64,000 nt of DNA from Bartonella taylorii (GTDB lineage Bacteria > Pseudomonadota > Alphaproteobacteria > Rhizobiales > Rhizobiaceae), in NCBI RefSeq assembly GCF_023920105.1, contig NZ_CP083693.1, forward strand, positions 575,001-639,000. The letters are read 5' to 3'. Each line of letters opens with the position of its first letter. Position 1 is the first letter of the stretch. This document shows, one piece after another, positions 1,543 through 2,664 of this stretch. A model generated the notes under the pieces. It ran no database searches. It was given only the letters and a program-made list of their open reading frames with translations, and was not told the DNA's origin. A program made the position numbers and the translations under genes.

Positions 1543-2664
1543 GTGATGATAAAGACGTTTCATTATAGAAAAATTGCTCAAGATGGATGTGCGCGTCGTG
1601 GCGAAATTATAACGGATCGTGGGTGTATTCGTACACCCGCATTTATGCCAGTTGGGACGGCAGGAACCGTTAAAGCTATGTATATGGATCAGATACGTGC
1701 TCTTGGTGCAGATATTATTTTGGGCAATACTTATCATTTAATGTTGCGTCCGGGGGCTGAACGCGTTGCGCGTTTAGGAGGCTTACATGAATTTTCACGC
1801 TGGTCTGGGCCTATTTTAACCGATTCTGGTGGATTTCAGGTTATGTCACTGGCGGGAATTCGTAAAATTACAGAACAGGGTGTAATTTTTCGCTCTTATG
1901 TTAATGGAGCGTACTATGAAATGAGTCCAGAGCGTTCCATCGAAATTCAAGAGCTTCTTAATGCTGATATCCAGATGCAGCTAGATCAGTGTATTGCATT
2001 ACCTGCAAGTGAAAAAGAAATAGAAGCTGCTATGGAACTTTCATTACGGTGGGCACAGCGTTGTAAAACAGCTTTTGGCGATCATCCAGGCAAAGCACTG
2101 TTTGGTATTGTTCAAGGCGGTGATAATATGAAACTGCGTGAACGTTCTGCCCAAGCATTAAAAGAGATGGATTTGAAAGGTTATGCTATTGGAGGGCTTG
2201 CTGTTGGTGAACCACAGAGCGTTATGACTTCTGTGTTGGATGCTACGTGTCCGATTTTGCCAGAGGATAAGCCACGTTATCTTATGGGAGTAGGGACGCC
2301 TGATGATATTTTACAAAGTGTTGCTCGTGGTATTGATATGTTTGATTGTGTTATGCCGACTCGTGCAGGGCGTCATGGTTTAGCTTTTACACGCTTTGGT
2401 AGAATTAATTTGCGTAATGCACGTTATACAGAGGATCCATATCCTCTTGATTCACAGTCGCTTTGTCCTGCGGCAAATGATTATAGTTGCGCTTATTTGC
2501 ACCATTTGATCAAATCTGGTGAATCTCTTGGTGGTATGTTGTTGACTTGGAACAATCTCTTTTATTATCAGCAGCTTATGCAAGGAATTCGTGATGCGAT
2601 TGAAGAAGGATGTTATGCTGATTTTTGTGCTGAAACACGTGCTTTATGGATGCAAGGGCGATAA
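1543..2664 (+). CDS. tgt: tRNA-guanine transglycosylase with altered zinc site
   Basis: This enzyme would exchange guanine 34 of GUN-anticodon tRNAs for a queuine-family base. The 373-residue frame is intact. It keeps the general acid D94 (LTDSGGFQ), D148 (QLDQC), GGLAVGE, and the nucleophile D268 (FDCVMPTR). Compared with Zymomonas TGT from memory, the zinc ligands C318, C323 and H349 become S306, A311 and N337; only C308 (for C320) remains. The usual D-E-C motif reads D148-Q149-C150. The start is GTG 1543 or ATG 1546; no strong ribosome site is seen. There is no queA beside it. It may be a queuine-salvage enzyme, a zinc-independent variant, or a gene drifting towards loss. Confidence 0.9.

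Follow-up and report, generated by a model that had tools for sequence, protein, structure and literature searches.

The tRNA-guanine(34) transglycosylase (TGT) gene located in the 64,000 nt stretch of Bartonella taylorii DNA analysed here (the window) lacks three of the four ligands of the structural zinc site, and very probably encodes a working TGT of a zinc-independent form which, judged from the genes compared, is the norm in the order Hyphomicrobiales. The best reading of these comparisons is that the loss of the zinc site is ancient, and that the enzyme is functional and zinc-independent. The open reading frame at positions 1543–2664 of the forward strand encodes a full-length Tgt of 373 aa from the GTG codon at 1543, or 372 aa from the ATG codon at 1546 (1546–2664), with the ATG as the likelier start since the nearest relatives among the matches listed are mostly 372 to 378 aa in length, and the closest is 372 aa. 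Residues are numbered from the GTG throughout, except where the pocket is given as 216–222 or the 372-residue model is cited. In profile searches the protein scored 454.6 bits with TIGR00430 (cut-off 306.75) and 495.2 bits with PF01702 (cut-off 26.3), and tgt is single copy, being the sole PF01702 match in the whole genome (1,939,282 bases). The codons of the catalytic acid/base D94 (1822–1824, Z. mobilis D102), of D148 (Z. mobilis D156) together with Q149, a position usually occupied by Glu (1984–1989, with the Q149 codon at 1987–1989), and of the nucleophile D268 (2344–2346, Z. mobilis D280) were all read on the forward strand, and the three aspartates are invariant in the alignments of same-genus genes, of family/order genes outside the genus, and of named loci. 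The base pocket GGLAVGE at residues 217–223 is of the preQ1 type, with C150 at the position of Z. mobilis residue 158; the residues that we take to be the aromatic cluster of the dimer interface are kept, and the predicted model contains both the barrel and the C-terminal subdomain of the TGT fold. By its profile scores, aspartates, pocket and predicted fold, the protein is assigned to the bacterial tRNA-guanine(34) transglycosylase family.

Comparison with the Z. mobilis TGT (TIGR00430, PF01702; PDB 1ozm), which shares 57% identity as well as family, fold, length, catalytic aspartates and the GGLAVG pocket, showed that the two enzymes differ in the zinc site and in the Gln for Glu at position 149. 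A phmmer alignment placed C318, C320, C323 and H349 of Z. mobilis opposite S306 (TCG, 2458–2460), C308 (TGT, 2464–2466), A311 (GCA, 2473–2475) and N337 (AAC, 2551–2553), so that only C308 is kept. This is exactly the residue pairing given in the initial annotation of this DNA, which was also correct in listing D94, D148 and D268 as kept and residue 149 as Gln. The structural site CxCx2C...H thus reads S-C-A-N, with the remnant of the zinc loop at 2458–2475 and the replaced histidine codon at 2551–2553, both on the forward strand and within the former zinc subdomain (approximately residues 297–345, 2431–2577, forward strand), for which a confident fold was predicted, with no metal in the prediction. 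Since other features place these proteins in the TGT family, the zinc site is, on the sequences compared, unusable as a membership criterion for TGTs of Hyphomicrobiales.

We searched 121 genomes, drawn from the genus, the family and the order, for tgt and obtained a match in 117. Within the 71 Bartonella genomes, one had no tgt match, two had broken copies and 68 intact genes were extracted (including the window gene itself), none of which has the CCCH site: 62 read S-C-A-N and six S-C-T-N, and the substitutions are thus neither a sequencing error nor chance. The CCCH site was equally absent from 43 named Hyphomicrobiales loci (among the best 80 named loci listed) and from 33 further family/order genomes, consisting of 22 from the family/order search (out of 47 matching genomes outside the genus), one (L256) that came with the class sample and ten that came with the phylum sample. 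In contrast, among the same best 80 named loci listed, CCCH was present in 27/27 Rhodobacterales and 2/2 Rhodospirillales, with the sole Geminicoccales locus reading S-C-A-N and 2/7 unplaced loci being CCCH. The class sample comprised 110 genes (30 best and 80 chosen) from 136 genomes with a match, and the 109 of these from Alphaproteobacteria outside Hyphomicrobiales have four ligands in 86 cases, three in two, two in 11 and one in ten. In the phylum sample (70 of 119, 30 best and 40 chosen, with some genomes repeating the earlier samples), all 60 genes from other classes of Pseudomonadota were CCCH, versus 0/10 from Hyphomicrobiales. The initial annotation had presented the loss as a peculiarity of this gene and taken the zinc site to be a constant feature of bacterial TGTs; neither holds for this order, as no Hyphomicrobiales TGT examined is CCCH. 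It had also asked whether the same substitutions recur across active TGTs of the order, and this is the case for the substitutions, with activity published for B. henselae and extrapolated to the others.

The residues replacing the ligands vary within the order. Most rows have Ser, Cys and Ala/Ser/Thr followed by Asn or a small or branched residue in fourth place, with Ser-Cys-Ala/Ser/Thr-Asn in many families. The four places read Ser-Trp-Ala/Thr-Ile in Bradyrhizobium and its near relatives and Ser-Asn-Cys-Val/Ile in the two Devosia rows, while four Rhizobium/Agrobacterium rows read S-C-S-H, thus keeping two ligands. The zinc-site residues of the window gene were also found in Mesorhizobium, Brucella and Sinorhizobium, and S-C-A-N is presumably present in S. 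meliloti itself. Outside Hyphomicrobiales, 16 of the 23 zinc-less genes keep the histidine, which suggests that it is often the last ligand lost, but this was rejected as a rule, as the two Devosia rows have lost the histidine yet keep C311.

The age of the loss was investigated using a 94-row tree calculated without the site columns and rooted on other classes, which includes 28 Hyphomicrobiales, 37 CCCH alphaproteobacterial and ten other-class rows, and from which L256 was excluded along with seven zinc-less rows on long branches (L241, L244, L252, L261, L262, L276 and L281). A 162-row tree was also used, for which 13 genes were taken from the 67 other Bartonella genes and some of the CCCH rows were omitted. 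In the 94-row tree, a single clade (SH-aLRT 98) holds 27/28 Hyphomicrobiales rows, with L091 just outside, and adjoins zinc-less rows from other alphaproteobacterial families. The zinc-site label requires at least 7 to 8 changes on the trees (at least 8 on the 94-row tree), but the AU test did not reject a single clade for the 45 rows that have at most two ligands (p 0.339), and we therefore do not claim several independent losses. By these sequence comparisons, the loss of the zinc site is older than the genus Bartonella and than the loss of the queuosine pathway within it.

The queuosine pathway is reduced in the genome containing the window, where a genome-wide search gave no QueA match, a QPTR family match in one 262-residue frame, and QueC matches that were weak, partial and within longer frames (E about 1e-4), and were not counted as queC. 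The gene order in a queA-carrying same-genus locus (L282) is ppi-queA-tgt, and the corresponding queA slot in the window is empty, with 955 bases (588–1542) between the peptidyl-prolyl isomerase gene (18–587) and tgt, in which tblastn detected no queA remnant at E up to 10. Salvage of preQ1 is the likely role of this Tgt, by analogy with that published for B. henselae, of which strain Houston 1 retains tgt and QPTR without QueA (PMC11570991). Thirteen same-genus genomes (2.2–2.9 Mb; loci L282, L283, L286 and L287 among others) do keep queA, and in 11 of these queC also has a strong match, whereas of the 65 Bartonella in the earlier study just one (sp. HY038) was described as having the canonical de novo pathway (PMC11570991). 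All 13 have both the zinc-less site and Q149, and hence neither is a consequence of the loss of the queuosine pathway. We also observed broken tgt copies in two other Bartonella genomes, G015 and G051, and as the QPTR match is missing only in G051 and kept in G015, these two species seem to be undergoing separate decay of the pathway; fragmented tgt genes have been described in B. quintana strains (PMC11570991).

The broken copies, the reduced pathway in the window's genome and the very low preQ1 levels in B. henselae (PMC11570991) would fit a decay specific to Bartonella, in which tgt drifts after the loss of the pathway and sheds its zinc site while the frame is still open; decay of a still open gene was one of the possibilities named in the initial annotation. 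We calculated dN/dS for three same-genus sets from pooled pairwise counts, with no correction for relatedness and with a dS of about 1.1 in the queA-carrying set, and obtained gene-wide values of 0.05–0.08, indicating purifying selection. Residues 296–345 evolve slightly faster than residues 2–295 in all three sets, and the 13-residue loop at 303–315 gave pooled values of 0.117 and 0.153 in the queA-less sets versus 0.037 in the queA-carrying set. In this calculation on the zinc region, proposed as a check in the initial annotation, the faster loop in queA-less genomes counts in favour of decay, and the gene-wide value, far from neutral, counts against it. The window tgt has an open frame and a low pooled dN/dS (0.06–0.08), as opposed to the broken frame and near-neutral dN/dS of a pseudogene, and ongoing decay is not supported for this gene, although two other copies in the genus are broken. 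With the same residues present in Mesorhizobium, Brucella, Sinorhizobium and the 13 queA-keeping Bartonella genomes, and dN/dS far from 1, the sequences already contradict the idea that the zinc site was lost through decay, and we consider this explanation extremely improbable.

A changed substrate, for example host queuine, was another possibility named in the initial annotation. In known TGT structures the zinc site is located away from the base pocket. The pocket of the window Tgt is unchanged, and when counted from the ATG it comprises residues 216–222, as in the numbering published for the B. henselae TGT. Queuine-salvaging TGTs have the pocket GG[LS][AS]G (PMC11570991), instead of which the window Tgt has GGLAVG. 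The queuine-inserting TGT of Chlamydia trachomatis (PMC11570991) is likewise a salvage enzyme in an intracellular bacterium, but belongs to the type with the GG[LS][AS]G pocket, unlike the preQ1-type pocket found here. In favour of a new substrate are the published use of queuine above 500 nM by the B. henselae TGT with its transporter (PMC11570991) and the fixation of Q149, adjoining D148, in the Bartonella genes examined. Q149 is present in 68/68 intact same-genus TGTs, including the 13 from genomes with queA, whereas residue 149 is Glu in 21/22 family/order rows outside the genus and in 77 of the best 80 named rows listed. The zinc loss and Q149 both occur in Bartonella genomes in which queA, and mostly also queC, is retained, and with the GGLAVG pocket unchanged, a change of substrate is not supported as the cause, and an adaptation of the enzyme to the insertion of host queuine is highly improbable. 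Q149 is nonetheless a candidate for the relaxed preQ1/queuine specificity of the B. henselae TGT. The same residue was found in Candidatus Tokpelaia (P0017) and is rare outside the genus, and a zinc-less S-C-S-N TGT from the class sample outside Hyphomicrobiales (L259) has Trp at this position.

The B. henselae TGT is active with preQ1 in E. coli, with partial complementation, and B. henselae tRNA contains about 1000-fold less preQ1 than is typical of a sample from E. coli (PMC11570991), because of which the activity of such a TGT may be poor. By extension from this published enzyme, the window Tgt would be expected to catalyse base exchange on tRNA with a GUN anticodon. We propose that the zinc-less enzyme would still dimerise, bind such tRNAs and exchange G34 for preQ1, and that in the window's genome, where QPTR but not QueA has a match, its substrate would be salvaged preQ1 or, with poor efficiency, queuine, in line with the published data on B. 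henselae. The main text of the B. henselae TGT paper makes no mention of zinc, cysteine, ligand, Zn2+ or Cys (PMC11570991).

The suggestion in the initial annotation that the protein may fold without zinc is supported by the loss in every Hyphomicrobiales gene examined, purifying selection, the published activity of the B. henselae TGT and a confident predicted fold, with a pLDDT of 96–98 per block of ten over residues 291–350 of the 372-residue model, bearing in mind that AlphaFold places no metals and that an apo-protein could be folded in the same way. The subdomain that is held by zinc in other TGTs would here be held by ordinary packing and hydrogen bonds, and the Ser-Trp-Ala/Thr-Ile of Bradyrhizobium and near relatives suggests a hydrophobic refill of the zinc knot. 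Alternatively, zinc or another metal could still be bound through a rearranged site, for instance C308 and C316 with the H320/H321 pair, as 82% of the Hyphomicrobiales set retain C308 and 48/68 same-genus genes have C316. However, C316 is Arg in the other 20, several Hyphomicrobiales rows have Trp, Asn, Ser, Val or His in place of C308, and H320 and H321 are also present in 91% and 97% of CCCH TGTs, versus 100% in the Hyphomicrobiales set. Furthermore, within residues 285–372 we detected no new Cys/His column conserved at ≥30% in the Hyphomicrobiales set alone when compared with the CCCH set, and the new binding mode raised in the initial annotation thus lacks support; we regard a rearranged site as very unlikely. 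Hyphomicrobiales and CCCH rows differ sharply at several columns, among them 365, 369, 146, 278 and 252, which were considered as possible compensating residues. At 365 and 369, however, the letters of the Hyphomicrobiales are absent from most zinc-less rows of other orders, and so these columns look like shared ancestry rather than compensation. In a metal-free fold as favoured here, the structural zinc appears to be dispensable in the TGT of this order.

Two more structural zinc sites seem to be absent in this organism, as the sole matches for ribosomal proteins L36 (locus L358, C1:56427–56549) and L31 (locus L359, C1:1918150–1918356) in the window's genome have no Cys. Cys-free variants of L31 and L36 have lost a structural zinc site while the protein is kept, as for the window Tgt, but they are often zinc-regulated second copies, whereas tgt is single copy. 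It is possible, and we put this forward tentatively, that throughout the order queuosine is inserted by a TGT without metal, whose zinc knot has given way to metal-free packing of at least two kinds (Ser-Cys-Ala-Asn and Ser-Trp-Ala/Thr-Ile), and that this belongs to a broader economy in structural zinc, of which the Cys-free L31 and L36 would be further instances. If so, partly stripped relatives (CCSH, CCLH and SCSH) would record the order of ligand loss, with histidine usually last, and zinc in TGT would be a dispensable stabiliser and not a requirement.

In published passages, TGTs are described as having a zinc-binding domain as their hallmark (PMC6165067), and as belonging to the enzymes that require zinc for activity (PMC9508795, where a 1995 mutagenesis study in E. 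coli is among the sources cited). Among the best-ranked open-licence papers, we found no mention of a zinc-less TGT, nor one treating TGT, zinc and Rhizobiales together, although a subscription paper could have noted such an enzyme. Part of the TGT dimer interface, a target of inhibitor work, is placed within the zinc subdomain in a passage of another paper (PMC4425180), and a zinc-less subdomain may therefore bear on inhibitors aimed at this interface. If an order including Rhizobium, Brucella, Bradyrhizobium and Bartonella works without this zinc, the statement that TGT requires zinc would need a limit, the role of zinc could be tested directly on enzymes that naturally bind zinc and on those that naturally lack it, and any connection of zinc starvation with queuosine would be unlikely to run via TGT in these bacteria.
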